Positions 39,011 through 62,610 of a stretch of DNA of 64,000 nucleotides are shown here, one piece after another; the stretch's first letter is position 1; each line of letters begins with the position of its first letter. Location: NCBI GenBank assembly GCA_037043015.1, contig CM073324.1, positions 19,422,097-19,486,096 on the forward strand. The letters are read 5' to 3'. Both the position numbers and the translations under genes were made by a program. The stretch comes from Bryum argenteum (taxonomy: Eukaryota > Streptophyta > Bryopsida > Bryales > Bryaceae). The notes beneath the pieces are model-generated. The model made no database searches and was not told the DNA's origin. It was given only the letters and a program-made list of their open reading frames with translations.

Positions 39011-39816
39011 CTATGCAGTGATGAGGCAGTGGTGCTGCGTCCAAGAGTAGTGCACGACTTGCGCCTTGTCTCCCAGTTTGCGGTTCATCTGCTTGATGAG
39101 GCGGCGGTGCAGCTTGTACTTGGCCGCGGCAAATATCGGCGTCATGACCCAGCTGCTGTCGAAGGCGACGTTGGCTGCCAGCTCGGTGAGAATGTCCTTG
39201 AGAATCTCGGTCCACAGCCAGTCTCCCAGCCCGAACTTTTTCAGAATCTCCAGAACGGCCGCTTCGATGCCCGCTATGATGCTGTCCTTGGCGGCCCTGC
39301 TGATGCTGGTGCCAAGCTGGCTGGTCATGGCCTCCAATTCGTGCATGGTGGTCACATTGAGCACCGGAATGAGACCCAGTGCTGCAGAGAAGTTGATGCA
39401 CTCCATCACGGTGGCGGCCACCACTACTGGTATGCCACCTAAGGGGAGCACTGTGCTGGCCCCCACGGACGACACCGTCGTCAGGACGTCCATCTTGCGC
39501 TTGGCAGAAGCCTTGTCCACCTGGTCATCGATCTTCTTCTTGGTGTACTCATTGACGAGATGCAAACTCTCAGCCTCTGCAGATTGATCGAACCACCCTC
39601 GATGTCAAAGCCATTGCATGTGAGCCTGATGGGATGCATCCATTACGAGTTTCAGTAGCATCGAAACTCAGAGTTGAACTTACCGGTGGCATGCAGGCGG
39701 TGTTTCTCGAACTCCTTCTTGTACTCCACCTGAGACTTGCCGTCGATCAAAGCGGGCGGACCACCAGCGCCTTTGATCGCAACAGCATCGCAGGTTTCGC
39801 CCTTTCGCAGCCCCAT
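39011..39816 (-). CDS. gene C: unknown hydrophobic two-exon protein family, short form
   Basis: Exons 39816-39684 and 39576-39011, GT-AG intron in phase 1, 232 residues. Not a family I can name. Exon 1 (MGLRKGETCD...GAGGPPALIDGKSQVEYKKE) is soluble-looking. Exon 2 has a charged helix (EYTKKKIDDQVDKASAKRK), a hydrophobic stretch with a Pro-Gly turn (STVLPLGGIPVVVAATVMEC), then LGLGDWLWTEILKDIL-type helices, ending WTQHHCLITA. Three relatives lie at 51.2, 56.1 and 60.4 kb; this copy lacks their PQ-rich tail. The hydrophobic hairpin is loosely reminiscent of DUF697-type membrane-association segments (inference only). TATA at about 39984-39992. The Copia element ends about 80 bp past the stop. 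The MGLRK start is shared with gene B. Confidence 0.75.
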
Positions 39817-40110
39817 GATTGCAGCGAAAGATGTAAACTAATCGATCAGTTGGCACGGCGACGATCAAAGTACTCAACCGATCGAAGTACTGAACTGATC
39901 GAAGTGGAGCACTGCAAGTCCAATCGCTTGGCTGTCCTAGATCAAACTAGAACACCTCTGAATGATGAGGCACAAGGTTCATCTCTTTATACTGAGTTGC
40001 TGCATGTTCGGCCTTGGTGATCCTTCGACGGTCCCGATTGATGGAGAAGGATCCGATGGATGTCATATTACCGACGGGAGGCGAGATTCCGGGGTGTACA
40101 AGCGGGTGTT
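39817..40110 (-). promoter_or_regulatory. cluster-type promoter of gene C
   Basis: Contains TATA AGTATAAAG (minus strand, about 39984-39992), a downstream CTAGTTTGATCTAGGACA leader block, an AAGGATCACCA block, and the CGACGGG-GCGAGATTCCGGGG element (40068-40097). The same order occurs upstream of both lipase genes. Confidence 0.7.
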
Positions 40111-40205
40111 TACTTTTCAAACTGCTGGGCCCGAGTTTTGCAGCTTTTCATTTCTTTTCTATTCCTCTGAATCAATCAATGTATCATCAATTGGAAAAGC
40201 CTCGA

Positions 40206-40643
40206 CCATTTCTTCTTCGGCAAGCATCTTCTTCGTTCACTTGGCTAAAAAAGCCAAGTTGATACAGAATCTTTACCATGATCAAGATACAGAATTTTCA
40301 TCACCTAGTCTTCAATTTTCATTGAGCCCTCGGATACTACATTTTCCAATCGATAATACATAACAATCCTATTCTGCATGGACTCTTTTATAAGCTGCTA
40401 AATACTACATGCATGAGCTTTCGAATACTCCGTCTTATGCTAAATAGTAATGATTTCTTAATCTATATAACACTTGCATAGCTGAGAATCGAAGACTGAA
40501 AGGTATTCAATCATTAGTATCCGAGGGCTCAATGGAAATTGAAGACTAGGTAATGAAACGTCTGTATCTCAGTGATGGTAAAGATTCTGTATCAACTTGG
40601 CTTATTTAGCCAACGAAGAAGATGCTTGCCGAAGAAGAAATGG
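40206..40643. repeat. foldback inverted repeat, ~130-bp arms
   Basis: Left arm 40206-40337 (CCATTTCTTCTTCGGCAAGC onward) and right arm 40516-40643 are reverse complements with few mismatches around a loop of about 180 bp. Each arm contains CAGAATCTTTACCAT. Confidence 0.8.
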
Positions 40644-41521
40644 TTGAATTTGAGCATTCCACCATTTGAATGAGCAAGCATTTCTTTAGCATTTTTTTAG
40701 GATAAGTAGGTCACCATGAGGGTAAAATTTGTGTTTATTTAACATGTTCATAACTCATGACAAGAATTTGAAGGACCTTACATCAACAGTTGTACAAATG
40801 ATGATTCTTTTTGCCCTCAAAAAACTAGTTATTCATTTACCCTTTCTTTAACAAGGAAAATAAACTTTTTGTCTCTTTGCAAATTTAATAATTATTTAAT
40901 AATATCATCTAAGAATTTGTAAGGAATTTGAATCTCTGTTTTAACATATACATACTAGTTAGGTACTAGATCTTACAAAACTTGCATATCAAAAAATATG
41001 TCAAAATTTGAAAAAATCTACCTTCTTTATACGAGGGGAGTTTTTGGCTATGTTGAGGTATTTTGGTTCTGAGGTTTTTTGAGGCTAGTCGACTTTAAGG
41101 TTGAAAATAATGGGAAGAACTATTTCACTATTTCATTCTGGACATATACCAAGAAACACACTCCCTCTGTCCCAGGTTTTTTTCACTACAGGTGCCCTTT
41201 TTGAAATTTTGTCCCAAAATGTTTAATAAGTAAAAAATTGAGACTTTGATCACCATATTATAATGTATAGAGCCCTTTCATCACCTCATGGTGCTACTTC
41301 ACTTGTTCTGCAATTATGCATTATTAGCTCACAATTGAAAAAAACAAAATTGAACTCTCAATACCAATCCACAACATGCATAACATAAACATAATTGAAG
41401 GAGTTTTGCCCAACCATTGGCACGTCAAGATTTGACAACATTTGCTCTAGTAGTTCTTTGCATATCACTTTCTAACATCATCAATATTCTAGAACAATTT
41501 AGAACATTGTAGCCTCACCGT

Positions 41522-42340
41522 CCTCTTGCCCAAATGACCCAATTTCACATGTATGTGGTCATGTTTTATAAAATTCTGACCCATGATCTCTAACGACCAA
41601 TACCATTTTTTGCAGAATATTGCCACTTTGAGTTTTTGACAGAATTGAGGTTACTGGCAGGAAATGAAGCTCTTCTTTTTCTTTTGAGATCATGAGAGGG
41701 GGCCGGTCGGCAGGATGTGGAGCAGGTTTTATTACCGACAAGGAGGAAGTCGCAATGAGGCAAGTAGCGGTGATTCCATGGCTACTTGTGCCCGAAACAT
41801 AAATGGTAAAGATTCTGGCGGTTCAACTGGCCTACTTAGAATTCTTTTCGTAGGATGAAATATTTTTCAAGAATTAGTTTTGGAAGTACGTTCTTCCCAT
41901 CTGCATGGAATCAACAAGGTCGTAATCATTCAGGCCTGGCAAACAGTGATTGTCACTTGTCAATGGCTTTTGTAGCTTTATCACCTAGATGCTAATGGAA
42001 AGTCACCTCAAGTCTGTAAACATATTACCGACGGGGAGCGAGATTCCGGGGTTCATGAAGTATAATACTCGAACAGTTGTGTCTATTTTTCAAATTGCTG
42101 GGGCCTATTTTTGTTGCGAGTCGACCATTTCTACGTCTACCAGTGAGCTTACTTGAGAATACAAGTGGACTGGTTGTTGTAGTACTGTAGGCTTGCGGAT
42201 CTGTAAACCGCTAATGGATCAATGCCACTTGCGATTGCATTGGATCCCTTTACTCAGGATGACTATTTTCCACTTCTAGCGTATATATTGAAGAAGTGGT
42301 GGTTTTCAAGACATTTCCGATTTCAGGGACAGTCCATGAA
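41522..42340. repeat. left arm of large inverted repeat around the lipase gene
   Basis: Collinear in reverse with 45236-46016 over about 0.8 kb. Shared blocks include TGATTCCATGGCTACTTG-like, AATGGTAAAGATTCTG, GGCCTGGCAAACAGTGATTG and CCGACGGGGAGCGAGATTCC. Confidence 0.8.
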
Positions 42341-43200
42341 AGTCAAAGTCAGGTATCCATTGACTTGTACTCCGTATCAAATTGCACGTAAATACATCTG
42401 AACTGCATGCCGAGTAACCCAGCTTTGCTCGAAACTAATTCTAGGTTGATATCAATCGGAAACATTGCCCACTTGTTTACGAGTCTAGAAGGACCACCCG
42501 CGTAAGTTCTTGTGACAAAATCAGCCCGAAAAGGAATTCGAGAGTAACAAGAACCTGCACTGTCGGTGTGAGAAGGCAGGCTGCGGCCCTCGTTCTCGCA
42601 AAAGCCAAAATTCCACAAAAAATTCCACGGTTCTGAGGATCATTCTATATTTACTGGCTTAGCTGTGACCAGATAACAAGTTGTGAAGTTTCCTAACTGC
42701 AAGCGCTTCGTAAGATCTGCTACCGTTGTTTGTGCCTCACTAAATTTCACCGCTGCCATCCATTTTCAATTCAACTTCTGTTTCCATCGAATGAGATTGA
42801 CTAGTTGTTCGACTCACATCGAAGTGCGCAATCACAAGTAGTCAACTCGAATTTTCAACTAAAGACATTTTATCCCCTAAAAGAGGAGAGAGAAGCTCGA
42901 ATTGGGTCTATTCCCTCTAAAGAAATGCTCTGTTTTCGTAAAAACTGAAACTTTGACAATATATAGACCTCAAGGTCTGTATGGTGAAATATGATTAAAA
43001 AACTGATGATTGACTAATTAGACAGTTATAAACAAGATCCTAGAGTTGGATTCTCCGATATCAAGTTAAATAATAATTTGTTCAAGGATTTCAGATATAT
43101 ATATCCGGAGGGTCGCCGTGGAACTTCTCTTGTACGGGTCAACAAAGATGCAAAGAAAGGGTCGCAGCACAAGTAGGCCCAGCAATAGATAATTGCTTGA

Positions 43201-43505
43201 ATATAATACTCCATATATATCCCAGAATCTCGGTCCCCGTCGGTAAGTGCTAACAACCATCGATCCTGATCCCTCCCCACCGATCCTGAGCTGAGACCTC
43301 CTAAGTGAAAGGATCACCACGTCCGGACATGATTGCAGTAATTTGGTATAAAGAGCTGAACCTTCCGCCTCGACATTCATCAAGCATCTGAGCATCGTTC
43401 TAGTTTGATTCAGGACAAGTGATTAGTCTTCCGAAACTTGCACTGCTCAATTGAGCGCGCGTGAGCGCAGACTCTTTCTCTGTCGCTTTCCATCAAACAA
43501 TCACG
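43201..43505 (+). promoter_or_regulatory. cluster-type promoter of lipase gene 1
   Basis: GAATCTCGGTCCCCGTCGG (43225-43243), CCATCGATCC and ACCGATCC blocks, AAGGATCACCACGTCCGGAC, and TATAAAG at 43347-43353, followed by CTAGTTTGATTCAGGACAAG and AGTCTTCCGAAACTTGC. The TATA lies about 160 bp before the ATG. Confidence 0.75.
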
Positions 43506-44970
43506 ATGATAGGAGCTGGATACTTGGCGAAGCGCCTGGTGACGGGGACGGCGGGTTTGATTGGATGCAGCGACTACACGACCTCCGTCCTCGGTAAGGT
43601 TGCCGTAATCGGAGTGTCTGTTGTCACCCTGGATCCTTGCAGCATTTTTGCCGATAGCGTCATCGAGAGCGGCTTAGAGGCAGCACTTGCCGGTGGTAGC
43701 GGAACGGAAAGTACATCCCGAGGTACATATGTGCTCTTTAATCTCTGTATTGGCGAAAGATATCTATCCCCTTCCATGAATCGAATGACCGTAACCCTTG
43801 TGATCGATTGCAGAGTATGAAGACACCGACGCTGCAGAGGAGGAGGTCATCGCCGATGAGGAGTTGAATCCAGTCGATGAGGAGTTGTGTGCAGCCGATG
43901 AGGAGCTGTATGCAGTCGATGAGGAGCTGTATGCAGTCGATGAGGAGTTGTATGCAGTCGATGAGGAGTTGTATGCAGAGGAGTGCCCAGAACTCGCCCC
44001 CGGTGACACCCAAGCATGCGAAGACACAGAAGAGTGCGAGGGTGAAGTCACGGATGGGACCGAGCAGCTTCTTGAAGCTCTTCCCTACATGGCGATGGCA
44101 GTGGCAGCCTACAAGAGCAATAGCATGGTCGAAAGCATGAATGAAGCTGGGTTCAAAGATTTCGTGTTGGACAGCCAAATCATCCACAACGTGATCAACC
44201 CGACATATCTCTTCGGAGGCATAGGGAAGACGGACACCGAGGTTCACGTGAGCATCTTGCAAGACGAGACCGTGGTGTTCGCCTTCAGGGGCACGGAGCC
44301 AACAGAGTGGAGCACAGGCTTCGCGGATGTGTTGACCGATCTGGCGTGCAAGCAAGAGACTGTGAACCTTTACGATGGGAGCACGGAGCCAGTGCACACG
44401 TCGCCGTCAGATATCAAGGCACACCGAGGCTTCCAGCTCGGACTTAAAGATGTAACCGACAACCAGCACCCAGGACACAACCTGCGGATGGTGTTGCAAG
44501 AGATGGGGTTGGAGGCAGAGGAAGTAACGAATGTGGTGTGTGTGGGTCACAGCTTGGGAGGAGCGCTGGCCACGCTCTGTGCGAAATGGTGCAGAGATGT
44601 TGCATTTCCGGATGCCACGATCGGATGCGTCACCATCGGCTCGCCGCGCGTTGGAAATATTGCGTTTGCAGAGGATTTTAACAACCGAGTGGTAGATGGG
44701 CTGAACTACCGCGTGGTGAACAAGTGTGATGTGGTTCCTGCCGTCCCCAACCTCTTAAGTTACCCCAGCTTCGGGTCTGCTTACAAGCACGTCGGCGAGC
44801 CCATTTACCTGTTGGCTGATGAGCAAGAACAGATTTCAGCTTCCCTTGGAGGACCTCGCCCCACCCTGTTGAACTTGGGCTTCTTCGACCATTCGGGAGG
44901 TTCATACATGCAGAATGCTAAAGAAGTAATTATGGAGATTGCTGAGCAAAATGAATTGCCAGTGTATTAA
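43506..44970 (+). CDS. class 3 (fungal-type) lipase, copy 1, with acidic repeat
   Basis: Alpha/beta-hydrolase of the lipase class 3 family, probably acting on acyl esters. Exons 43506-43722 and 43814-44970 (phase 1, GT-AG), 457 residues. Catalytic triad readable by analogy with fungal lipases: Ser319 in VGHSLGGALA, Asp378 in NKCDVVPAVP, His432 in FFDHSGGSY. The first exon encodes a hydrophobic N-terminus (AGYLAKRLVTGTAGLIG, then VAVIGVSVVTLDPCSIF) not usual for this family. After it comes an acidic region with five perfect-to-near-perfect VDEELYA units (43873-43977), single in copy 2. An EQLLEALPYMAMAVAAYKSN helix precedes the lipase core. Paralogue on the opposite strand at 47311-48674. Start chosen for agreement with copy 2 (ACAATC before ATG). 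Confidence 0.9.
43873..43977 (+). repeat. 21-bp coding tandem repeat (5 units)
   Basis: Units of GTCGATGAGGAGCTGTATGCA type encode VDEELYA; the last units are nearly identical, so recent expansion by slippage or unequal exchange is likely. Confidence 0.9.
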
Positions 44971-45235
44971 GGTAGAGGTAGCTAAACTGGTGACTCTTGC
45001 AGATGTTCAGGATTATCGAATTGTTATATATCTTGGTAGGGTAGTGTAATAGGATTCTAACGTGCCAAAGAACATGCGATGTACTTCAATCCATTCAATT
45101 TGATTAGAGAGCATTTCAAGATATGGTGACTCTCAAATAAAGATTCAAAATCAAAATTAACTTTTTTTAACCTTGAAAAATCGGGCATGTTATACCTTCA
45201 TGGATTTTTGACCTTGAAAATTTGGACGATAGCCG

Positions 45236-46016
45236 TGAACTGTCCCTGAAATCGGAAATTTCCTGAAAACCACCAATTATTCAATATGTACGCTAGTCAC
45301 CCTGAGTAAAGGGATCCAATGCAATCGCCAGTGGTTATTGATCAGCGGTTTACAGATTCGCGCAAGCCTACGGTACTACAACAACCAGTCCACTCGTATT
45401 CTCAGATGAGCTCACTGGTAGACGTAGAAATGGTCGCAACAAAAGAAGGCCCCAGCAATTTGAAAAATAGACACAACTGTTCGAGTAGTGTACTCCATGT
45501 ACCCCGGAATCTCGCTCCCCGTCGGTAATATGCTTACAGACTTGAGGTGACTTTCCATTAGCATCTAGGTGATAAAGCTACAAAAGCCATTGACAAGTGA
45601 CAATCACTGTTTGCCAGGCCTGAATGATTACGACCTTGTTGATTCCATGCAGATGGGAAGAACGTTCTTCCAAAACTAATTCGAGAAAAATACGTCATCC
45701 TACGAAAAGGATTCTAATAGGCCTGTTGAACCGCCAGAATCTTTACCATTTATGTTTCGGGCACAAGCAGTCATGGAATCACCGCTACTTGCCCCAATGC
45801 GGATTCCTCCTTGTCGGTAATAAAACCTGCTCTACATCCTGCCGACCGGCCCATCTCACGATCTCAAAAGAAAAAGACGAGCTTCATTGTCTTTCAGTAA
45901 TCTCCATTCTGTCAAAAACTCAAAATGACAATACTCTGCAAATGGTACTGTTAGAGACCATGGGTCAGAATTCTACAAAACATGACCAAATACATGTGAA
46001 ATTGGGTCATCTCGGC
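45236..46016. repeat. right arm of large inverted repeat around the lipase gene
   Basis: Reverse complement of 41522-42340. A third, shorter relative in this orientation lies at about 50360-50755. Confidence 0.8.
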
Positions 46017-46103
46017 GATAAATTGGACAATGTGTCTTAAAAACCATATGTACACTTAGACTTTAGTGGATATACAATGGAAAATTTGTTAAATTTACAC
46101 AAA

Positions 46104-46106
<3 letters not shown>

Positions 46107-46178
<72 letters not shown>
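46107..46178. repeat. (TA)n microsatellite
   Basis: About 36 uninterrupted TA units. Confidence 0.95.
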
Positions 46179-46186
<8 letters not shown>

Positions 46187-46564
46187 GCTACCAAAGCCAT
46201 TGAGACAATCACTGAATGCTAGACCTAAATTATCACGACCATGATTATATGCAAATGCCAAATGGTAAGTAGTACCAAATCTAATCATTGAAAACTATGT
46301 CATCCTACGTACATGATTCTAAGTAGGCCAGTAGACCCAGAATCTTTACCATTTAGTTTTCGGGCACACGGAACCATGAAGTCATCGCTTTCAACAGCCG
46401 CCTCCCACATGACGAAAGACTGGGACTTCTTGCCCCATTGCGACCGCTTTCTCCCTGTCGATGATAAACCTGCTCCACATCCTGCCCGATCTCATGATCT
46501 CATAAAAATGATGAGCTTACTTTCTTCAGAGTATTCTAACGTCCGTCAAAATCTGAAAATGCAA

Positions 46565-46720
46565 CAACTCAGTAGAAAGAGATGAACCTTGTGCCTCATT
46601 ATTCAGCAGTGTTCTAGTTTGATCGAGGGCAAGCGATTAGACTTGCAGTGCTTCACTTTGGTTAGTTGAGTACTTATTTGATATTTGAGTAGTTGAGTGT
46701 GGCAACTCCACGAGGACGCA
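46565..46720 (+). promoter_or_regulatory. orphan cluster-type promoter/leader
   Basis: Closely matches the gene C promoter and leader: GATGAACCTTGTGCCTCAT, TGTTCTAGTTTGATCGAGG, CAAGCGATTAGACTTGCAGT. The TATA is decayed to AGTAGAAAG. No member of either gene family follows, so it marks a lost or moved gene. Confidence 0.65.
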
Positions 46721-47310
46721 CTAGATTACGAAGGAGTTCAAGAACGGTCATCGAACAAGCAAATTGTTGTGCAAATTTTACGACACAAACCAAGTTTGAT
46801 TTCAAATTTGAGTTCAAATCAAGTTAGAATCAGACTTGAGATGAAGAAGTTATGGCTTTCGAAAGCTTAAGCCATTCTTCCAAATGATCAATTTTTGACC
46901 ATGGGGACTTTTATGGGACGGAATGCAATAGAATATAAGCATGATTTAGCAATATAAAGAATGATTCCTGAAAATTATTGATCTAAATATAATAAAAGAG
47001 TATCAAACTAAGCTACAATAAGCTGCATTAGCTTTTCAAAAACCCTTCTCCTCGAGTACTCCATTGTGGTGGGCTCACCTGCTGTAGGTTATTTGATTTC
47101 GAACCTTGTTAGATATGAGATTTTTCACTTCAGTGAAACTTTCGTCAATTCACTGAATGTAAGTTTTGAAAACAAAATCTATACTATACATTCTCTTCAA
47201 ATTCCCTCTCACACTACTCAACTTGAGGTACAGAAGTCCTAAATGATCAACGGACATAATACATTCAAGGATAGGTTCAACAAACAGTCTATTCAGTTTG
47301 ACCTCAAGGC

Positions 47311-48674
47311 TTAAGGTTCTTCCAAGGCAACTATAACCCTCTTAGCAGACTCTATGTAGGAACCTCCCGAATGGTCGAAGAAGCCCAAGTTCAACAGGGT
47401 GGGGCGAGGACCTCCAAGGGAAGCTGAAATCTGTTCTTGCTCATCAGCCAACAGGTAAATGGGCTCGCCGACGTGCTTGTAAGCAGAGCCTAAGCTGGGG
47501 TAACTCAAGAGGTTGGGGACGGCAGGAACCACATCACACTTGTTCACCACGCGGTAGTTCAGCCCATCTACCACTCGGTTGTTGAAATCCTCCGCAAACG
47601 CAATATTTCCAACGCGCGGCGAGCCGATGGTGACGCATCCGATCGTAGCATCCGGAAATGCAACATCTCTGCACCATTTCGCACAGAGCGTTGCCAGGGC
47701 GCCTCCCAAGCTGTGACCCACACACACCACATTCTTTACGTCCTCTGCCTCCACCCCCATCTCTTGCAACACCATCCGCAGGTTGTGTTCTGGGTGCTGG
47801 TTGTCTGTCACATCCTTGAGTCCCAGCTGGAAGCCTCGGTGTGCCTTGATGTATGACGGCGACGTGTGCACCGGCCGCGTGCTCCCATCGTAAAGGTTCA
47901 CAATCTCTTGCCCGCACGCCAGATCGGTCAACACGTCCGCGAAGCCTGTGCTCCACTCTGTCGGCTCCGTGCCCCTGAAGGCGAACACCACGGTCTCATC
48001 TTCCAAGATGCTCACGTGAACCTCGGTGTCCGTCTTCCCTATGCCTCCGAAGAGATTTGTCGTGTTGATCACGTTGTGGATGATTTGACTCCTGTCCACC
48101 ACAAATTCTTCTGGCACAAAACCTTGACTCTGATAGTCTTGCATGCTAGTAACCATGTTATCAGTTTTGTAGGCTGCCACTGCCATCGCCATGTAGGGTA
48201 GAACTTCAAGGAGCTCCTCGCTCCCATCCGTAGCTTCGTCCTCATACTCGCCTGCGTCATTGCATGCTTCTGTGTCCTCGGGGCAGAGAGGTGGGCAATC
48301 CGCAGCGTACAACCCCTCATCGACGATGAGCGTCCCCGACTCTGCAGCGCCGATGTCTTCATAACCTGCGACCACAAAGATTCTCAGTAAGGGCTAACTA
48401 TGTTGGTTAGCAAGCAGAGGATAACTTTGAGCATATGTGTACCTCGCGCTGTAGACGTAGTTTCCATTCCGGCATCGGTAGCGGTTGAACCAGATTCTAG
48501 GAGTGTCTCTGCGCCGCTCTCGAAAATGCTATCGACGAGAATGCTGGCAGCATCGAAGGTGAATAGTGTTACTCCCCACTTGATATAACTGCCAATGGTT
48601 GAGGCCGTCTCATCGCTACATCCGATCATTTGCGCCGTCTTCTTCGCCGCGCGCCCAGACACGAATCCAGCCAT
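47311..48674 (-). CDS. class 3 (fungal-type) lipase, copy 2
   Basis: Paralogue of the gene at 43506-44970. Exons 48674-48443 and 48365-47311, phase-1 GT-AG intron, 428 residues. Hydrophobic exon 1 (MAGFVSGRAAKKTAQMIGCS, then WGVTLFTFDAASILVDSIF) has the same layout as copy 1 but diverged sequence, whereas the lipase core is nearly identical at DNA level. Triad: Ser296 in VGHSLGGALA, Asp in NKCDVVPAVP, His in FFDHSGGSY, all intact. It has a single VDEGLYA where copy 1 has five repeats, and a different C-terminus (ESAKRVIVALEEP). Arranged tail to tail with copy 1, 2.3 kb apart. The contrast between a conserved core and diverged ends suggests gene conversion or selection (inference). Confidence 0.9.
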
Positions 48675-48985
48675 GATTGTTTGATGGTTACGAGAGAGAG
48701 ATGCCAGCCCTCACACAGCCCAGATCCAGGAAGCGAAGTTTCGGAAGTGTAATCGCTTGCTCTCAATGAAACTAGAACACTACTCAGATGTTTGATGAAT
48801 ATTGAGACCCAAACTTCAGCTCTTTATATGGAGTGCTACATGTCCGGACGTGGTGATCCTTTGACTGGGCAGGCTCAGCTCGGGATCGGTGGAGAGGGAT
48901 CGATGGTTGAGATTTTACCGACGAGGAGCAAGATTCTGCCTGGGGGTATATGGAGTACTACAGTCATGCGGTTACGCAGCTATTG
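48675..48985 (-). promoter_or_regulatory. cluster-type promoter of lipase gene 2
   Basis: Minus strand: CATATAAAGAGC TATA at about 48820-48829, GTCCGGACATG and AAGGATCACCACG block, CCATCGATCC, and a TTACCGACGAGGAGCAAGA variant of the shared element (48915-48935). It closely parallels 43201-43505. Confidence 0.75.
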
Positions 48986-49308
48986 CTGGGCCCGCCTAGT
49001 TTTGATGCAGGCTATTTCTTCGCATCTTTGTATGAAAGTGTTACGAGAAGACGAGTTGACAACTTGAGATTGCGTACTTCTATCACTTCGAAAAAAATTG
49101 CAAACGGATGGCAGCGCTGAAATCTGGTGAGGGGTGCCAGCCGAATTATTCTTGACGAAGTATGAACAACATCAAAAGCTCTTACAAAGCGACTGCAGTT
49201 TAGGGCCCTTCTGAATACAATAGAATATCTGGTACCAATTACCAAATAAGCCATTCCATACAGAATTGTAACCCCTTAAGTCGAGGCCGATTTTACTTTT
49301 AAATTTCA

Positions 49309-49348
<40 letters not shown>

Positions 49349-51155
49349 TGGAGGAGAGGTGGTACAAGGCATGTTCAGATTTTCAATCCAATAAATTTTC
49401 ACATGCCTTTTTACATGGTAAGAAAGGTGCTTATGTATTTCAATTTTAGCATACCCTCATGTGAAAAATTAAACATTTCTATAGGTTTTATAGGTCCTAT
49501 AGGGGTAAAATTTGTGTAGACATATTCTAGACTGATAGGAGAACAAGAATGTGAAGAGCCTTACTTCATATTCACTTTCAGAAATGGTTATTTTGACCCT
49601 CAAAACATTGTTGTCCATTTTTACAAGTGAAAAAAACTTCCTAGTTTAATTTCAATTCTAAATGTTAATATGATCTCACATAGAGTGAGGAAAGTGAGTT
49701 TAAGATTCAATATACATGATATGATGATATAGTACAAGTTCAGTACGAGAACCAACGGTTTCATACTTCAAAATCCATAATAATTAGAAAAATGAAATAT
49801 CTCACTTTGCACTAAACTCCTAAAGATTCAAGGACTATCTGCATGACTATCTAGTTTTGAGGGTAAAGCATGCAGATAGTCCTTGAATAGGAGTTTAATC
49901 ATTAAGTTATTGATGGGTGGAGAGAAAGAGTCTCGTCGCGACCTGCCCTCTCACACCCACACAGCAGGTTGTTACTCACAAATTCCTTTCCAGCCGATTT
50001 TGTCGCAAGAATCCTTCTGAATCCTTGAACGATGTTTTTTCTTTTAAAATAAAATAAATTAATCAATTGAGAGAAGTACATACATGACCGAAGTAAAGAA
50101 CAACTCGGCGAGGACCTGATCGGGTTATGAAAGTAACCAGGGTACAAAATTGGGCAATCGTCGCAGGAATTATCGCAAGAATTCCATGAGACTTAAGAAG
50201 AAGTGAAATATGGATCTCTGCGATGTCAAAGATTGATTTTAACATAGGATTCCTAAAACAAATTAGCACGGCTGAGCTTTCCGGCATGCAGTTTAAGTTT
50301 ATTTTCGTGCAATTTGATGCACATGGTCAGGAATACGATACAATGAATGACTGACTTTGACTTACGTGGACTGTCCCTGAAATCGGTACCGATATTGCCA
50401 TCACCAGTTTAATTACTATTCTGGAGTTGAAGAAATAGTCATAGTGAGTCAAAGAATCGTAAAGAGCTCTGGACTGTCTGGAGTTGCTCCTGTATCACCT
50501 CACCGAATTTCACCTGTGCGATCCATTTGCAATCACAAGTTCGTGTTTGTTCGCGGTTCACATATAAGAAATTAAGCCTACAGTACTACAACAACCAGTC
50601 CACTCGTATTCTCGGAACATTGTCTTCTCAAACACGCTGGTAGCCTGGTAGACGTGGAAATTGTCGCAATAAGAGTGGAACCCAGCAATTTGAAAAGTAG
50701 AGAACTGCTTGATTACTATACTCCATATAACCCGGAATCTCGCTCCCGTTCTGCTCAGAGCATCGGCACTGCAAGCCCTTTGACCCTGGAACGTCGGAGC
50801 CCGTCACCGTGAATGATGAGGAAGTTGGAAAAATGATTTTGGATGTTCAAAGATTGTACAGTATGAAATCTCAAATCCATTCATCGGACATATTGCGTCT
50901 GCTTCAATGTTTTAGGGTTAAACAACCCCACCAAGTGGATAGTCAAGCTAGGGAGCTTTTTAGGGAGTGTTTCTAGGAAACTAGTTGAAGCCCCATCGTG
51001 TGACCTCTACTTAGAGTGTTTGGTACAGTGCCCTATGTTTAGAACCAAATGCATAGAGATTTTTGAGTGTAAATCCAAATGGCCAAATGTGTAAACTCAA
51101 ATCTTTAAAAACATATTTTTTTGAGTGTAAACTCAAATGCTCTCGTAATAGCATT
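48986..51155. other. intergenic within the cluster
   Basis: Contains a poly(T) tract (about 49311-49345), a dispersed repeat related to 40.7-41.0 and 55.65-55.8 kb (49370-49760), and a third relative of the large inverted-repeat arm (about 50360-50755) with a truncated shared promoter element at 50731-50752. No gene recognised. Confidence 0.5.
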
Positions 51156-51719
51156 CTAGGAAACCCCAATGAGAGCATGGAGATTCAAAATATGATTATG
51201 AAACCTTTGTTTAATCTTCTTGATGAGGTGGCGGTGCATCATGTACTTGGGCACACCTAGAACGGGTGTCAAGATAGAGGCGCAGTCCATGGCGGCGGTG
51301 CTAAGCGTCTCTGCCAGTATGTCCTTGAGGATCTCGTCATACAGCCAGGTTTTGAGCCCCAGGCCATGTTCCGATGTGAGGGCCTCGACAACAGCCTTTT
51401 CGACGCCCGCTTGGATGTTGCTCTGGTTGTCCTGGATGCGGTTGCCAATCTGGGTGCTCATGTTCTTCACAGGGCCCTCGGAGCATGTCACATCCTGGTG
51501 CTGCTTGATGAGCCCCAATGTGGCAGAGAAGTAGAGCTAGGCTCTGCATTATGGTGGCAGCCACCACCAGGGGCACGCCGCTGAAGGAGACGACTGAGCT
51601 GCTGGCGATGGCCGTGACCACCGTGGTGATGTCCATGACACGCTTGTGACAGGCTTCGTCGACAAGGCGATCCATCTTCTTCTTGATGTAGTCCTTGACG
51701 TGCTCCAAAACCTCGGCGT
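51156..51719 (-). pseudogene. gene D: frameshifted copy of the hydrophobic two-exon family
   Basis: Second exon only. It begins after an intact acceptor (CTGTAG|ACGCCGAG) at 51719 and reads VLEHVKDYIKKKMDRLVDEA, FSGVPLVVAATIMQSL. A net four-base gain (an extra AGCT near 51530) then shifts the frame; the shifted frame continues FSATLGLIKQH, STQIGNRIQDNQ, LGLKTWLYDEILKDILAE and PKYMMHRHLIKKIKQRF to a stop at 51156. No matching first exon or promoter is seen upstream. It lacks the PQ-rich tail, like gene C. Confidence 0.8.
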
Positions 51720-52036
51720 CTACAGATGGAACCACCCAGGCACCCACTAAGTCAGAACCGTCTGATGAGTTGCAATGAAGCATCATTCTCGCTGGTACGA
51801 GTATCATCATGCCATTCTGGTCTCGAAGAAGTGGAATCAGTCAGGGTTAAAAAATCCTCAATCATGCCGAACTAGCTCCAACTACTGCGTCCTTTTCTTA
51901 CCAGAGTCATGGAAATTTCGAAAGAGCATACCACGGGGTTGGCTTTCAACTCATGGACTGAATTGAGCACCAGCCAATTAATGCTTCCAACTCATGGACT
52001 GAATTGAGCACTAGCCAATTAATGATATTTGAGCCT

Positions 52037-52781: not shown

Positions 52782-52783
<2 letters not shown>

Positions 52784-52852
<69 letters not shown>
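52784..52852. repeat. (TA)n microsatellite
   Basis: About 34 TA units. Confidence 0.95.
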
Positions 52853-52856
<4 letters not shown>

Positions 52857-54229: not shown

Positions 54230-54995
54230 TTGGTATGATTATGAATGATTCAACTTGTCAAGTAGCACCATTTTAGGTATACTTAGGGACGCTTTGCATG
54301 GGGAGTCAAGGCCAACGAATCTCCTCGCCAATTCACTCACATTTTAAGCCCAATTGGCTTCATGGGCCACTTGGAGAACATATTAAACAATTAATAAAGT
54401 GGAGGCAAATTCCTCCATGTGTAAAGCCCGTAGGGCTGATTTGTAGAAGGAAAAATAAGGCCACATGTGGGGGCCAATTCTAATAGTAAGTTGTACATTC
54501 CATGCTTTTGATTTGTTCACATTAAAATATTTGAGAGAAATAACATTCGATTTTGTATTGAAATTAAGCAATGGCCTCTAGGCCATGAATTGGCCTTCCA
54601 TTCTTGTATCTCTCAACTTTTGAAGTGCGGGTCATGTCATAACTTGTCCCCCACCCATTATAATATAATTTCAGAAAATTGGTCTTGACTCCTCATGTAA
54701 AGCCCTTCCGGCCAATTTCAAGAATTGGATCAATCACAAGGGAGGATTTGGCCATGAATTGGCCTCATCAATGGCTTTGCCCCTCATGTAAAGCGGCCCT
54801 TATATTTCTAACTTCGAAAATTTATAACTCACTCTACAAGAGTCCAAAAATGATGCTCTAACTTTTTACAAATTCTTCCCATGCACAAAAATTGCAAGCT
54901 TACATTAGTAGCATTCCTGCAGATTTCAATCATTTCATGTGTAGAAAATTGTGCCATTATTGGCCACCTTACTATTTGTGGAAGAATAATACATG
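54230..54995. mobile_element. relative of the 38010 MITE, split by another MITE
   Basis: The part before 54283 (AGCACCATTTTAGG) and the part after 54800 (TATATTTCTAACTTCG...GAAAATTGTGCCATTA) are collinear with 38140-38325; the 514-bp element at 54286-54799 interrupts them. Confidence 0.65.
54286..54799. mobile_element. 514-bp Harbinger-like MITE, TTA duplication
   Basis: Ends GGGACGCTTTGCATGGGG and (complement) GGGCCGCTTTACATGAGG; TTA on both sides (54283-54285, 54800-54802). Internal GTAAAGCCC and ATGAATTGGCC blocks repeat. Confidence 0.8.
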
Positions 54996-55850
54996 TGAAT
55001 TCATCATGTTTTGGACTCTTTTACAATTTGTCAAGAAAGTGAACTTGTAGGTGGTGCAGTTTAAAATGATGTCCTAATTTAACACCCTATAAAGTCTGCT
55101 ATGAGTCTGCTATGAGTACATGACAGTGTTAGATTTCGTAACTAAGTAAAGAAGTTCCATTTTAGAGCACTCAACTTTTTGTTCTTGAAAACCCGAAACA
55201 TTGTAACTTCCAACACCCGTACTTGAAGTAATTGGAAATTGTCACAGCAAAACTCGACCCAGCATCCCAAAGCTCCAAAGTTCCAATCATTCCCTCATTC
55301 TAGGTCGGTTAAATCCTTATGTCAAAAAGAGCCCAAACAAGACGTTTGAGGTCTCGCCAGCCTCGTACTTACTATATTTAGCTTGCATGAAATTGGAATC
55401 TTTTTCAAGTGTGGATATATTCCGTACCTTTTCGAAGGATAATTTCATGCTTCAAAATTCCTCATACTTTAGGAGCTTTAACATTCAAAGTTTGAAAACG
55501 CTATTTGAAATATGCCCAAAAATACCCAAACTGTAGTTTATGCTCATTTATTCTCAAAATCTGCCCACAATTAGTAAATCACAAAAACTTCAAAATTTTA
55601 CCAAAATCAAGATTTTACTCTTTTTCAAGTTTTATTTTTTGTACATGTACATAGGCAGGTCAGTATGTCACCAATCGGATTTTCAATCCATTTATTTTCA
55701 ATTCATTTATTTTCACATACCATTTTAATCGTGAAAGACCAGCCTTTGCATTTAAATTTCAGCATACCTCCATGCGAAAATTCAAGCATTTCTTTAGGTT
55801 TTAAAGAAGGTCGCATAGTCAAGTCTGAAGTCATAGGACCGACTTCAGAC

Positions 55851-56137
55851 TCAGCCCCTGTCGGTAGCATATTCGAGTATGAAGTCAACTATCTATCCCT
55901 GTTCTCCATCGCAGCCGTCCTATCACCCCGCGACTCAGCCTTCGCCAGTCAATGCCTCACCAAGTCCAGACGCGCAGCATCCCTCTATAAAGGATCCATC
56001 CTTTGCCTCATCTCCAGCAGGCATCAATCTAAGCAGTATTGTCACTTCGTACTTTGAAGCCAAGTTTTAGACCTCGGAGACGAGCAATTGCAGAGCTTGG
56101 GTGCTTTGTTGTCGATCGGCTTAGATCTTCTAGCGAG
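55851..56137 (+). promoter_or_regulatory. promoter region of gene A
   Basis: CTATAAAG TATA at about 55984-55991, about 150 bp before ATG. The upstream GCAGCCGTCC and AGTCCAGAC-like blocks and the downstream GAAGCCAAGTT leader are shared with gene B. A partial CCCCTGTCGGTA element lies near 55856. Confidence 0.55.
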
Positions 56138-57967
56138 ATGGGGTTGAGGAAGCTATTTCCAAGGACTCGGACGACGCATCGGATGCTCTCCCGGTTGCCG
56201 CACCACTCAAGGGTGCTGGTGGTTCGGCTGCCTTGATCGACGCCAAGTCTCAGGCGGAGTACAAGAAGCAGGTTGAGAATCACCGCCACCTGCACAGGCA
56301 TGCCACGGGTGAGATACTAATTCCGATTGTTAGCTCTCGACATGATGTGAGTCTGTTTTACTGTGAGATTTTGAGGAAGCGGTGATTGGAGCTTGTTCTG
56401 CATGTCTGAGAATGTTGAAGGGTTCCAATAATGTAACCACTAGAACGGAATTTGGCAACCGTTTCGTGAGGTGCTTATTGAAACGGCCGGTTCACAAGAC
56501 GCGTTTCTGGACATGTAATGTAAAGAAGCTCGTATGTACAATATTAATTTGGTTCTGATATCGGAGGTGAATTGTCCTGCAGACGCCGAGGTTTTGCACC
56601 ATATCAAGGAGTATATCAAGAAGAAGATTGATGGCATCGTTGACGAAGCCCAACGCAAGCGCGTCATGGACATCACCACCGTGGCGATGTCCGTGGCCAG
56701 CAGCACGCTCATCCCCTTCAGCGGCGTGGCAGTGGTGGTCGCTGCCACCGTGATGCAGTGCCTCAACTTCTCTGTTACTCTGGGTCTCATCCCGCTGCTC
56801 AATGTGCGCTCCGCGGGCGACGTCAAGGCCATGTCCAGCCAGATTGGCACCAGCATCAGCAGGGCCTCCAAGGATGGCCTCATGGCGGGCGTGGAAACGG
56901 CCGTTCTGGAGATTCTGAAGAGCCTGGGACTTGGAGACTGGCTGTGGACGGAGATTCTCAAGGACATTCTGATCGAGATGATCGGCAGTGGCGCCTCGGA
57001 CGGTGCGTGGATCATGACGCCGCTTCTCGCTGTGCCCAAGTACATGTTGCACCGTCACCTCGTGAAGAAGATGTACCGCAAACTGGGCGACAAGGCTCAC
57101 GTCGTGCACCACACTTGGACGGAGCACCACTGCGTCGCGACTGTCCAGACCACGGTCGTGACGCACGTAGCTGTTGATGCGAACGGGAACGTACAAGGCG
57201 CATACGTACAAACGCAGGAAGTGAACGGAGCTGGTGTGCAGCAAGTCTCGCAGACAAACGCATACTTCCAGCAACCAAACGGAGGCGCCCCACAAGCGCA
57301 GGTTACTCAGACCAATGCGTACTTCCAGCCGCAAAGTGGGCAAGTGCAAGTTACTCAAACAAGTGCATACTTCCACCCACAAGCTCCGCAGCAGGATATG
57401 TATCCACCTCCTGCTAACCAGGCTTTGCCAGGCATGGTGCCCGGCTACTCGCAAGCATATCCGGCTTCCACCCCGAATGCTTTCCAGCCAGCTCCGAAGC
57501 AAGGCGGAACCCTAGTCATGGGGTACACGCCACCGAAGAACTCAGACTTCTTTCAGCCTCAAGTACAGCTGCAAGGAACCCAAGCCATGGGATACACGGC
57601 TCCAGCAAACGCAGTCTATTTTCAGGGACAGGGAGGGGTTTATCATCAGGCCGCTGCTGCTGCGCAGGTTTACACTCCGCAACCAAGTGCAACGTACTCC
57701 CAGCTGCCGTATGGCTCACAAGCAATGAGTTATCCTCCAGCACAGGCGCAAGGGAATTCATACGCTCAAGTGGGAAATCACAACAGTCACCAGATCGGTA
57801 CTCCTGGGCAGCCTCACTTTTCGCCTTATGGTGAGGTCAGGACGCAAGGGGAGTCCAAGCGTGAGAGTACAACAGTGCCCAAAAGCAACGGCGGCCGCAG
57901 TTTCGGTCTCATGGTGAGGTCAAGATGCAAGCACATCCGCAAGCCGGAGCTAGTTACCGGCAGTTAG
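56138..57967 (+). CDS. gene A: hydrophobic two-exon family, long form with PQ-rich tail, first exon frameshifted
   Basis: Inverted duplicate of gene B. Exon 1 56138-56308 starts MGLRK but is 171 bp against 172 in B; the missing base (between CTATT and GACGCATCGG) throws the frame into an early stop. Exon 2 56583-57967 after TGTCCTGCAG is intact, 460 residues: helix HHIKEYIKKKIDGIVDEAQ, hydrophobic hairpin ASSTLIPFSGVAVVVAATVM, LGLGDWLWTEILKDIL, HRHLVKKMYRKLGDKAH, WTEHHC. A long Q/P/Y/N-rich tail with VTQTNAYFQPQ-type repeats follows. An ATG at 56534 inside the intron is in frame and could start a shorter product. The C-terminus differs from B (no 19-residue repeats). Function unknown. Confidence 0.6.
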
Positions 57968-58490
57968 CAGATTATCTAGCTGTGGACCCACACCGATTGC
58001 TCTTCCAACTTGAAGAGCACATGGAAGTGGTTCAAATAAGGTCATGGCAGCCATGTACGTATCATAACTTAATACTAGGTCATAGTGACCTTGTGAGTGC
58101 ATTGTAATCTGGAAGGGGTCAATCCCCACGAGATACAGAACATGGAATCAACCATTGTACTTCTAATGAACAACTACCAAATTTAGTTTCAGTCGATGTT
58201 GAGTGTCATGTTTCAAGCGGTTGGAAAGTGTGCAAATTCAAGGACGTGGTGACCTTAATAATATCAAAAGTAATACGTACTCGTCAATAGAGCTTCTGCA
58301 AAATACCTCGAATGTACTGTACACAAACCGAATGGAAATACTTTGTGTAATACTACTGTTTCCAGTGGAGAAGCATGGAGTGCGCGGCAAGCATCATCTT
58401 TTCATTCGAATTCATGGTACAGCAGGGAAGCTATATTTGTCAAGTGACCCTAACTTTTCTTATGTAAAATGTACTGTAATTTGTTGAAGT

Positions 58491-58584
58491 TTGTTGTCAG
58501 AAGGATGAGACACTTTCTGTAGCACTCCGCTTGATAGCAGACCTGTCAACATGATTAACAGTGTCTCATCCTTCTGGCAGCAAT
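58491..58584. repeat. 24-bp-arm hairpin
   Basis: CAGAAGGATGAGACAC at about 58498-58513 and its complement at about 58561-58576, extended outward to about 24 bp per arm with two mismatches; loop about 46 nt. Confidence 0.75.
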
Positions 58585-58990
58585 TTTTGCAATAAATCTT
58601 CGTTTGTGGACGTTGAATTTATGAGCACTTTGCGAGGTGATGGAGCTTGTCATCCCCTTTTGAAGTGGAAGCAGGCAGCTTATGGAGCAGGCATAATGCT
58701 CAGCAATCACGAGGATAAAGTCGCAGTGAAATGTATGCGGCGACTAAGCTCAGTATTCTATCACGTGCTTTGAAGGGCATATTATATAAGAAAGAGAAGG
58801 CGCCTTAACATTACTTCGCTTCGGTGATGTTTGTATTGTTACCATGATTGTAATGATACTTGCCATGCAATCTATAGCTTTCTTCTCGCTGCAACAAGAA
58901 GAGGAAACAGTAGAAATGCTTCCTGCAGCGGAAATATTCTGACAATATTGAAGGTTAGTGATAAAACCATTCATAAGTTGACTGATACCT

Positions 58991-59340
58991 CACTACAATA
59001 AGTCATGCCATTCTAAAGTTATTTCTGTATTGGTGACTACGTAGAGTCATGTATTGTTGACTATACTTAGTCACCTATACCATATGTCTGCCTAGGAATA
59101 GTCAACTATATATGACTTTACAGAGTCATATTTTCCCAAGTCCCAGCGCAGGTCCCTATTTGAGGTCCCAAAACACTGTGGGAACGCAGTATTGGGAACA
59201 AAAATTGTCCGATATGACTGCTAATCAGATTGTCCGAAGCGACTAAGTCCAAATGACTACAGATGGTGCTAGTCACATTTTGATTTATGCCTGATTTTAG
59301 TCATAAAACCTAGTCACATTGGGTTGGATTTGTTGTAGTG
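58991..59340. mobile_element. CACTA-like MITE
   Basis: Starts CACTACAATAAGTC and ends GATTTGTTGTAGTG, terminal inverted repeats of CACTA (En/Spm) type, with many subterminal TGACTA/TAGTCA hexamers in both orientations. The 3-bp target duplication is not clear. Confidence 0.6.
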
Positions 59341-60388
59341 TATTATCATTTCACTACATATGGGTACTATGACTACGGGCGTAATCATATTATTTGTAGC
59401 GGCTAAGAGTAAATGACTGAAAACATGATTCTTGATATTCATCTTTTAGTCATGTTTTGAGGATTTGTCATCACATGTCATTACAAACGATCATGTGTGA
59501 TATGTGACATGTGACCACAAACTATCATAACAATGATTGTAAGATGATTACTAAGTCATATTTTCTGTCATTTACTCAGACAATATGACTACGTCCATAG
59601 TTAATATCAAATATTGGAGTATCTGGAAGCACCCTGGAGTATACTGCCGAAGCAAGTGCTCTGGAGTAAACTGCCGAAGCTAGTGAAGATATGCTAATAC
59701 AAATTGCATTACTCTCACCTTCCATGATGTGGCAAACAATGTAAAACACAAGGTCTTATAATTCCTAGCAACGGCTCAAAGTTGTGAATCAACAATGTTA
59801 GAAAGGTCTGTCAAAAAGGTCTGGAGTTGAAACACATTCATTTTCTCAATGCGGTGCTTCAAGTAACGAGCTCGAAACAGGAAAACAGTTGAGTTCTGAG
59901 TAAAGAGATCGAATGGAGCATCCCAATATATTCGTCTCTCGTGAAGACTCACGCTCAATTTCATTCACAGCTGAACTAGAATGACATCTGACGTAGAAGA
60001 GAACAAAATATGAAAGTGCGATTGTGAATGTGAATGCACCGTTGCAAGATGTAACATTGGAACTTCCTATTTTGTGTAAATGACTGGGAGTTTGCCCACA
60101 CGTTGCTTCCTCTGGTGGGGATTTCCCCTTCCAGACAATGATACTTGAATACACTGACATCTCTGTAACTATACCTTTATCTATGATACACATGGCCGCT
60201 GTGACCTAATTTGAACCGCTTCCCTGTGCTCTCTCGACGTTGGAGAAGCAATCAATGCGGGTTCGCAGCTTAGTCCTATACCTTTTTCTTGCCTACTGTC
60301 GGAAACCAGCCCCTGCTTGCGGATGCACCTCACCCGAAGGCGGAAACTTAGACTGCCCAGGAGTGGCGATTTGGGCTCTGCTGTAATC

Positions 60389-62316
60389 TTACATGTGGAC
60401 ATAAGGATTTCCTTGCGGAGTACCGTTCTGGGCATTTTTGTAATCTCCCACTTGGACATAAGGATTTCCTTGCGGAGTACCTTTCTGGGCATTTCTGTAA
60501 TCTCCCACTTGGACATAAGGATTTCCTTGCGGAGTACCTTTCTGGGCATTTCTGTAATCCCCCACTTGGACATAAGGATTCCCTTGCGGCTGTTGTGGCG
60601 GATAACTCACCGCTTGTGAACCATACGGCTGCTGGAAGTACGTTGCACTTGGTTGCGGAGTGTAAACCTGCGCAGCAGCGGCGGCTTGATGATGAACCCC
60701 GGCCTGTCCCTGGAAATAGGCCGCATTGGCTGGCGCCGTGTATCCCATGAATTGGGTTCCTTGCACCTGCACTTGCGGCTGAAAAAACTCTGAGTTCTTG
60801 GGTGGCGCGTACCCCATGACTAGGGTTCCGCCTTGCTTCGGAGCTGGCTGGAAGGCCATCGGGGCGGAACCCGGATATGCTTGCGGGGAGCTAGGCACCA
60901 TGCCTGGCACAGCCTGGTTGGCAGACAGAGGTGGATACATTTCCTGCTTCGGAGCTTGTAGCTGGATGTACGCACTTGTTTGGGTGACTTGCGCTTGTCC
61001 ATTCTGCGGCTGGAAGTATGCATTCGTCTGAGTAACTTGTGCTTGTCCATTTTGCGGCTGAAAGTACGCATTGGTCTGAGTAACTTGTGCTTGTCCATTT
61101 TGCGGCTGAAAGTACGCATTGGTCTGAGTAACCTGCGCTTGTGGGACGCCTCCGTTTGGTTGCTGGAAGTATGCGTTTGTCTGCGAGACTTGCTGCACAC
61201 CAGCTCCGTTCACTTCCTGTGCCTGGATGTATGCGCCTTGTACGTACCCGTTCGCATCGACAGCTACTTGCGTCACGACCGTGGTCTGGACAGTCGCGAC
61301 GCAGTGGTGCTCCGTCCAAGTGTGGTGCACGACGTGAGCCTTGTCGCCCAGTTTGCGGTACATCTTCTTCACGAGGTGGCGGTGCAACATGTACTTGGGC
61401 ACAGCCAGAAGCGGCGTCATGATCCACGCACCGTCCGAGGCGCCACTGCCGATCATCTCGATCAGAATGTCCTTGAGAATCTCCGTCCACAGCCAGTCTC
61501 CAAGCCCCAGGCTCTTCAGAATCTCCAGAACGGCCGTTTCCACGCCCGCCATGAGGCCGTCCTTGGAGGCCCTGCTGATGCTGGTGCCAATCTGGCTGGA
61601 CATGGCCTTGACGTCGCCCGCGGAGCGCACATTGAGCAGCGGGATGAGACCCAGAGTAACAGAGAAGTTGAGGCACTGCATCACGGTGGCAGCGACCACC
61701 ACTGCCACGCCGCTGAAGGGGATGAGCGTGCTGCTGGCCACGGACATCGCCACGGTGGTGATGTCCATGACGCGCTTGCGTTGGGCTTCGTCAACGATGC
61801 CATCAATCTTCTTCTTGATGTACTCCTTGATGTGATGCAAAATCTCGGCGTCTGCAGATGAAATCACCCCCTCTATCAGAACAAAACACAAACGTCGTCG
61901 CACAACCGGTTCGTTGCACGTTTGGAAACTAATTACGTCTTGTGAACCGGCCGTTTCAATAAGCACCTCACGAAACGGTTGCCACATTCCGTTCTAATGG
62001 TTACATCATCGGAATCCTTCAATATTCTCAGACACACAGAACTAGCTCCAATCACTACTTTCTACCTGATCAGAGTCTTCAATATCTCGCAACAAGACAG
62101 GCTTAGATCACAACGAAAGCTACGAATCGAAGTGACAAACTCACCTGTTGCATGCCTGTAGAGGTGGCGGTGATTCTCGACCTGCCTCTTGTACTCCGCC
62201 TGAGACTTGGCGTCGATCAAGGCAGCCGAACCACCAGCACCCTTGAGTGGTGCGGCAGCCGGGAGAGCATCCGATGCGTCTCCCGAGTCCCTCGATAATA
62301 GCTTTCTCAACCCCAT
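60389..62316 (-). CDS. gene B: hydrophobic two-exon family, long form with PQ-rich tail
   Basis: Best preserved member: exons 62316-62145 and 61851-60389, phase-1 GT-AG intron, about 544 residues. Exon 1 (MGLRKLLSRDSGDASDALPA... KGAGGSAALIDAKSQAEYKR) is soluble and ends in a His-rich HRHLYRHAT. Exon 2: amphipathic helix to about residue 85, hydrophobic hairpin at residues 88-132 with an IPFSG turn, three helical blocks (SQIGTSISRASKDGLMAGVE; LGLGDWLWTEILKDIL; PKYMLHRHLVKKMYRKLGDK), WTEHHC, then from about residue 250 a low-complexity Q/P/Y/N/G tail with 16-residue VTQTNAYFQPQNGQAQ repeats and 19-residue GNPYVQVGDYRNAQK-type repeats. No family recognised. The hairpin might associate with membranes and the tail might self-associate, prion-like (inference). 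Promoter TATA at about 62461-62470. Confidence 0.8.
60396..60594 (-). repeat. 57-bp coding tandem repeat
   Basis: Units start at 60396, 60453, 60510 and 60567 (TGGACATAAGGATTTCCTTG on the plus strand) and encode PQGNPYVQVGDY plus RNAQKGT. Absent from gene A. Confidence 0.9.
60980..61140 (-). repeat. 48-bp coding tandem repeat
   Basis: Three to four near-identical 48-bp units encode VTQTNAYFQPQNGQAQ; gene A has only about two. Confidence 0.9.
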
Positions 62317-62610
62317 CTCGCTCGGCGTACCACGGCGGATCCAAAACTATCAACAACAAAGTACCTAATTGCGGTAGCTCGTCTCCGAAGTCTGATAACT
62401 TGGCTTCAATCAAAGCCACAACACTGCTCTGCTTTTTGCCGAAGATGGCGCAGGTTGAGCTCCTTATACTTGGAGAAACGCTGCAAGTCTGGACAAGGTG
62501 AGTTGAAAGTCGCAGGGATGATCGGACGGCTGCGCTGGGGGGACAGGCCTTGATGGTTGACTCTAGTAACCAGATTACCGACTGAGGCCGGGAATTCGGG
62601 GTGCAGAGAG
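62317..62610 (-). promoter_or_regulatory. promoter region of gene B
   Basis: Minus strand AGTATAAGGAG TATA at about 62461-62471, about 150 bp before the ATG, GCAGCCGTCC and GTCCAGACTTGCAG blocks shared with gene A, and a diverged form of the shared element (TTACCGACTGAGGCCGGGAA) at 62575-62594. Confidence 0.6.

Follow-up and report, generated by a model that had tools for sequence, protein, structure and literature searches.

Promoter copying between two unrelated gene families as a likely route to common regulation at a locus of Bryum argenteum

Introduction

Plant biosynthetic gene clusters are defined as holding at least three non-homologous biosynthetic genes, and it is an open question how the unrelated genes of such plant clusters come to gain common regulation. 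Passages of the review PMC9298681 describe clusters in which non-homologous genes and duplicates lie side by side, with common regulation proposed or shown, and cite Shoji's model, in which genes join an existing regulon through promoter evolution. Here we describe a locus of Bryum argenteum within a stretch of 64,000 nucleotides (hereafter the window; C4:19422097-19486096 of a 258.8 Mb assembly in 25 contigs). At 39.0-62.6 kb of the window, about 250 bp of homologous promoter precedes members of two non-homologous families, class 3 lipases and a hydrophobic protein family, and leftover promoter fragments lie among them. The answer to the question may therefore be visible in the DNA here, and recruitment through promoter duplication is thereby made directly testable.

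Results and Discussion

Organization of the locus

From left to right, the cluster reads A(-), L1(+), L2(-), B(-), C(+), D(-), where L1 and L2 are class 3 lipase genes and A, B, C and D are copies of one hydrophobic family that Pfam does not recognise. Lengths are in amino acids (aa) and E is the expect value of a match.

39011..39816, minus strand: A, 232 aa; exon 1 39816-39684, intron 39683-39577, exon 2 39576-39011 (gene model with a phase-1 GT-AG intron)
43506..44970, plus strand: L1, class 3 lipase, 457 aa; exon 1 43506-43722, exon 2 43814-44970 (gene model; Pfam Lipase_3, E 6.1e-22)
47311..48674, minus strand: L2, class 3 lipase, 428 aa; exon 1 48674-48443, exon 2 48365-47311 (gene model; Pfam Lipase_3, E 7.6e-21)
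51211..51738, minus strand: B, a relic with exon-2 sequence only, in two frames (family matches)
56138..57967, plus strand: C, exon 1 56138-56308, exon 2 56583-57967 open, with a long tail (gene model)
60389..62316, minus strand: D, 544 aa; exon 1 62316-62145, intron 62144-61852, exon 2 61851-60389 (gene model)

A preliminary description of this DNA had the two families alternating; the lipase pair is in fact nested inside the hydrophobic-family array. Its two class 3 lipases were borne out, with Lipase_3 (PF01764) scores of 78.5 and 74.9 bits against a curated cut-off of 22. Its four hydrophobic members were recovered as four copies, none above a Pfam cut-off, of which B is a relic and C has a broken frame. 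The layout that it gave to all genes, a short first exon, a phase-1 intron and a long second exon, holds for A, D, L1 and L2, which form complete two-exon predicted models with a GT-AG phase-1 intron. For B, neither an exon 1 nor a promoter match on the 5' side was seen. Exon 1 of C is one base short of that of D, and the frame from its ATG stops after 32 codons in this assembly. Each of the pairs L1/L2 and C/D is an inverted duplication with its two copies convergent, tail to tail and about 2.4 kb apart (stop-to-stop distances from the gene-model coordinates are 2340 and 2421 bases, respectively).

A homologous promoter upstream of both families

A promoter plus leader of about 250 bp was found to be homologous between the families in five genes (A, L1, L2, C and D):

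39918..40130, minus strand: promoter and leader of A (L1+L2 profile, E 1.6e-30; pattern match)
43177..43427, plus strand: promoter and leader of L1 (pairwise, profile and pattern matches)
48748..48991, minus strand: promoter and leader of L2 (pairwise, profile and pattern matches)
55817..56072, plus strand: promoter and leader of C, the most diverged form (L1+L2 profile, E 3.2e-7; pattern match)
62390..62655, minus strand: promoter and leader of D (L1+L2 profile, E 5e-15; pattern match)

The aligned elements follow one order, a GCCCAGCA block, GTCGGTAA, TCACC..GKCC and a TATA box, and then the leader. We compared 400-bp upstream stretches in ten pairs with 200 shuffles each (shuffle maxima 24-30), the starts for L2, C and D being set off by one or two bases. 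Seven of the ten pairs scored clearly above their shuffles (L1-L2 215, C-D 78, A-L2 76, A-L1 62, L1-D 36, A-C 35, L2-C 35) and L2-D was marginal (30, against a shuffle maximum of 26).

Profile searches succeeded across the families in both directions. A profile of L1+L2 found the promoters of A, D and C at the values listed above, with no match at E<=1 in the reversed or shuffled window, and a profile of C+D found L1 (E 1.7e-15), L2 (4.9e-15) and A (7e-8). The columns of these multi-sequence profiles came from an alignment of all five promoters, a weakness from which single-sequence queries are free. The L1 promoter alone found L2 (5.3e-38), A (1e-18) and D (9.1e-12), and C was not found at E 1; the D promoter alone found C (5.9e-17), L1 (9.2e-12), L2 (4.4e-8) and A (1e-4); and the A promoter alone found L2 (3e-20), L1 (6.1e-20) and D (6e-7). 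Over all six models, the reversed and shuffled windows together returned five matches, at E 0.02, 0.26, 0.53, 0.8 and 0.89. From these comparisons, homology of the promoter across the five genes is close to certain.

The collinear promoters of the preliminary description were thus confirmed, as was its expectation that the upstream regions would align, which they do significantly for most pairs, only five of the genes having the promoter. The TATA box, placed there about 150-170 bp before the ATG, lies 148-175 bp upstream of it in all five promoter-bearing genes. The ranking of promoter strength in that description, given under undefined letters, is right if its letter C stands for the 39-kb gene and its letters A and B for the genes at 56 and 62 kb. 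The one-intron layout held in common does not count as evidence of common descent. First exons align within the families (A-C 102, A-D 102, C-D 276, L1-L2 48) and not between them, where scores fell inside the shuffle ranges, and a first exon common to both was rejected. The introns are silent on common descent because only those of C and D align.

Restriction of the promoter to this locus

The pattern TCACCNNGKCCRRACNNGN{10,15}TATAA had five matches in the 258.8 Mb, all at these genes, and its backwards control had none; the pattern was derived from the five promoters, so only the absence of further matches is informative. A 24-base upstream element, allowed up to 3 mismatches, had five matches in the assembly (A, L1, L2 and two of the orphan pieces described below; control 0), in a search that does not reach C or D. 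DNA searches with the L1 promoter, the A promoter and a repeat of about 800 bp, which reach copies of about 75% identity or more, found copies in this cluster only. Close members of both families were likewise found at this locus only, save for one relic on C5.

Orphan promoter pieces and duplication history

Four pieces of promoter stand apart from the recognised genes:

42019..42102, minus strand: orphan upstream half-promoter inside the repeat of about 800 bp (41528-42336) (nhmmer E 3.6e-10; exact element match)
45451..45537, plus strand: orphan upstream half-promoter in the other arm of the inverted repeat (nhmmer E 3.2e-11; exact element match)
46552..46642, plus strand: orphan downstream half-promoter and leader, with no gene recognised behind it (nhmmer E 5.5e-21, model of A, L1 and L2)
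50681..50748, plus strand: orphan upstream half-promoter (nhmmer E 4.2e-8)

The repeat at 41528-42336 is 89% identical to 46016-45236. The downstream piece at 46552..46642 is closest to the A promoter (88% identity over 122 aligned bases), and the piece at 50.68-50.75 kb lies on the strand opposite to B, past its 3' end. These four pieces are as expected of what lost copies would leave. A repeat found at 41624-41981, 45572-45786 and 46182-46561 has an upstream-half orphan on one side and a downstream-half orphan on the other, and the stretch 45451-46642 has the look of a single orphan promoter into which about 1 kb was inserted.

The coding sequences carry a similar record. The C-D core has 98.5% DNA identity, with a synonymous divergence (dS) of 0.053 and a nonsynonymous divergence (dN) of 0.004 (9 differences), and dS in the C-D tail is 0.400. 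Between L1 and L2, dS is 0.07-0.22 in codon windows 160-399 and 0.44-0.65 in windows 0-159, and dN in the catalytic windows is 0-0.068. The homogenised tracts are confined to the cores. Differing constraint is by itself insufficient for them because dS would not drop, and they are explained most simply by gene conversion between the arms. Together, the orphan pieces and the homogenised cores suggest that copies arose and died here through local inverted duplication.

Among the promoters, that of A is 69 and 73% identical to those of the lipases and 51 and 61% identical to those of C and D. In 2000 column resamples, D was farther from A than L1 was in 98.6% of cases, and farther than L2 was in 99.9%. 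An unrooted promoter tree joined C and D firmly and L1 and L2 moderately (82.6/79), with A between them. By one gapped method, the L1-L2 promoters are 81% identical. This method gives 78% for the L1-L2 introns (72 aligned bases) and 72% for the unrelated intron pair A-L1, and unrelated stretches in general reach about 62-72%.

Probable promoter copying and common regulation, and their alternatives

We think it likely that a promoter was copied between the families and that common regulation came with it. A lineage-specific cluster would have been built through local, mostly inverted duplication, one promoter and its leader being copied onto, or captured by, a second and unrelated coding unit. 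The genes for a class 3 lipase and for a hydrophobic protein, the latter probably helical, would then start from homologous promoters and form a small lineage-specific regulon, answering to one regulator and being expressed together. Common regulation is likely because the cross-family promoter type is well supported and no further copy was found in the assembly with the patterns used; judged from promoter sequence, co-regulation of the lipase and hydrophobic genes would be reasonably probable. What the proteins would do together is a more doubtful matter. The lipase might hydrolyse membrane or stored lipid with the hydrophobic protein at the same membrane or droplet surface, which is to us the likeliest mechanism, though still of low probability, and the two would serve some need particular to the lineage, for instance in a biotic interaction or a special cell type. 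The fullest version is a tentative proposal: a private promoter, passed between unrelated neighbours by duplication and conversion, would drive a lipase and a partly Q-rich-tailed hydrophobic family, co-expressed as a two-part lipid or membrane system in one plant lineage.

Several observations weigh against copying followed by common regulation. In direct comparison, the pairs A-D (26) and L1-C (20) were not above chance, and with the A promoter alone the match to C had an E of just 0.019, on a par with the best control match. The DNA searches lose copies below about 75% identity, the L1 promoter having missed that of A. The downstream half of the promoter alone places L1 with C and D (76/73) and not with L2. 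The unrooted promoter tree is not in conflict with the coding families, and a transfer may have gone in either direction and at any time. The C-D promoter (63-76%) shows no stronger conservation than the C-D intron (78%), and constraint on the promoter is only suggested. In the lipase N-terminal windows dN is near dS, and dN/dS for A-D is 0.73. The cluster may also be decaying, since two copies of the hydrophobic family out of four appear dead.

Alternatively, the common promoter may be a by-product, carried across the array by local duplication and conversion, with no task that the unrelated families perform jointly; to this we give a little less than an even chance. It agrees with our preferred account on promoter copying and differs on function. 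The gene-less orphan pieces show that promoter segments multiply by themselves here and conversion-like tracts occur in both families, to which the apparently dead copies and the lack of clear promoter constraint may be added. On the other side, dN is below dS in the cores of close copies (C-D and the L1-L2 catalytic windows), and the proteins of both families therefore seem to be used. The same low dN in the cores points to protein use and away from the quite improbable idea that the convergent inverted pairs L1/L2 and C/D are a source of hairpin RNA silencing their families, with the promoter mattering mainly for read-through double-stranded RNA, even though both pairs are convergent with long similar arms (2340 and 2421 bases between the stop codons).

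We also considered that mobile or repeat-derived sequence was inserted upstream of several genes. The inverted repeat of about 800 bp flanks L1 and holds half the promoter, and partial copies of it occur at 46.2-46.6 and 50.3-50.7 kb. However, neither the repeat nor the promoter elements had copies outside the cluster in the assembly searches, all five promoters face their genes at a similar TATA-ATG distance, and no target-site duplication was seen by eye at the repeat ends, which were not mapped rigorously. Insertion of this kind is very improbable, and the idea that the promoter came from a dispersed mobile element was rejected because these searches gave no copies beyond the cluster. Copying of the promoter with common regulation is the account that we prefer.

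The lipases L1 and L2

Both lipases carry a GHSLGG motif. Candidate triads placed by motif and judged by the Ser-Asp-His spacing typical of lipases are S319/D378/H432 in L1 and S296/D355/H409 in L2; the lipase structure model (mean pLDDT 35.3) is too poor for geometry. The N-terminal exon of the lipases is hydrophobic, and L1 has an acidic repeat linker in which E plus D make up 43%, the net charge of the whole protein being -59. In the PDB, the lipase matched 1dt3 (a lipase; E 2e-8) and, more weakly, plant PAD4 and EDS1.

A search of the assembly with the lipase gave eight matches, of which only L1 and L2 are close; the other six align only in short stretches, at 37-46% identity, and one of these hits nothing but the linker. 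Exon 1 of L1 matches only L1 and L2 in the assembly. The PF01764 search of the assembly returned 46 six-frame matches, which are not a gene count. Three weak Lipase_3 matches (27.7-32.6 bits), with open frames of 449-669 aa, lie within 31 kb on C10 (G000:C10:6338288-6368942) and may represent another lipase array. Against plasmids, tblastn with the lipase found five bacterial lipases at 29-37% identity. No lipase relative was found in the viral-contig or genome-contig scans, whose exact peptide seeds say little on distant relatives.

The hydrophobic family

A and D are 61% identical across the exon-2 core, and A is without the long tail of C and D. The tail is repetitive in both, and that of D is Q-rich (20% Q). 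One strongly hydrophobic stretch occurs in A and D (Kyte-Doolittle about 2.0). The predicted structure is mostly helical, with a mean pLDDT (43.4) too poor for use.

The family is new to the libraries searched. Nothing was above a cut-off in Pfam for A, B, C or D or in NCBIfam for A and D, PHROGs gave nothing better than E 0.38 for A and D, a profile of A, C and D was unmatched in the PDB up to E 10, and tblastn against plasmids gave no match, so that no known family could be assigned from these sources. Two candidates were rejected: DUF2062 (PF09835), for which A scored 15.6-15.9 bits against a cut-off of 27.4 and D was not listed, and DUF697 or the helical domain of immunity-related GTPases, absent from the Pfam matches (E up to 10) to exon 2 of either gene and without a PDB match. 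The viral-contig and genome-contig scans gave no relative of this family either, and their exact seeds again say little on distant ones.

In the assembly, the core of D had six matches, five of them at this locus (A, C, D and two for B) and one broken on C5; exon 1 of D matched only D, C and A. The C5 relic (L024:4479-4739 = G000:C5:486478-486735) is a broken copy near a DUF4218 gene, and DUF4218 is transposon-associated. In the 9.9 kb around this relic the promoter had no match at E 1 or better, and lipase matches were at chance level (E 0.34 and 0.71).

Other features of the window

In its wider content the window reads as plant DNA, since it encodes domains of the purple-acid-phosphatase type, a reverse transcriptase of the copia type and a sugar-nucleotide epimerase. 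Neither Rfam models nor a tRNA scan had a match in the window. Remains of a copia-type retrotransposon (RVT_2, SH3_retrovirus) lie on the minus strand at 34936-36177, perhaps 33.4-37.1 kb, with a 44-bp tandem repeat at 36052-36146 within an open frame. An imperfect palindrome of 1.5 kb, resembling a foldback element, and further partial copies were seen at 13352-14848 and 23745-24267. Between the A promoter and L1, a 446-bp imperfect palindrome at 40202-40647 resembles a miniature inverted-repeat transposable element.

Comparison with known systems

We found no description of such a cluster in the literature on liverwort lipases or promoter sharing, a search whose liverwort focus and fixed phrases leave absence unproven. 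As class 3 lipases, L1 and L2 have the Lipase_3 domain, GHSLGG and candidate Asp and His residues at plausible places, and they differ by the N-terminal hydrophobic exon and, in L1, the acidic linker. Like the plant biosynthetic gene clusters, gene pairs and arrays described in passages of PMC9298681, this locus has unrelated genes adjoining one another, mixed with duplicates. It differs from the biosynthetic clusters in having a single enzyme family: of the two families that were recognised between 39.0 and 62.6 kb only the lipases are enzymes, where such clusters hold several non-homologous biosynthetic genes. The control sequences also differ, since the same passages speak of co-expression and, for pepper EAS-EAH, of a bidirectional promoter (PMC9298681), whereas the promoters here are homologous duplicates. 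Shoji's model, as far as it is set out there, is alike in placing an unrelated coding unit under an existing control sequence. It differs in that the promoter of about 250 bp looks physically copied at this locus, rather than evolved site by site.

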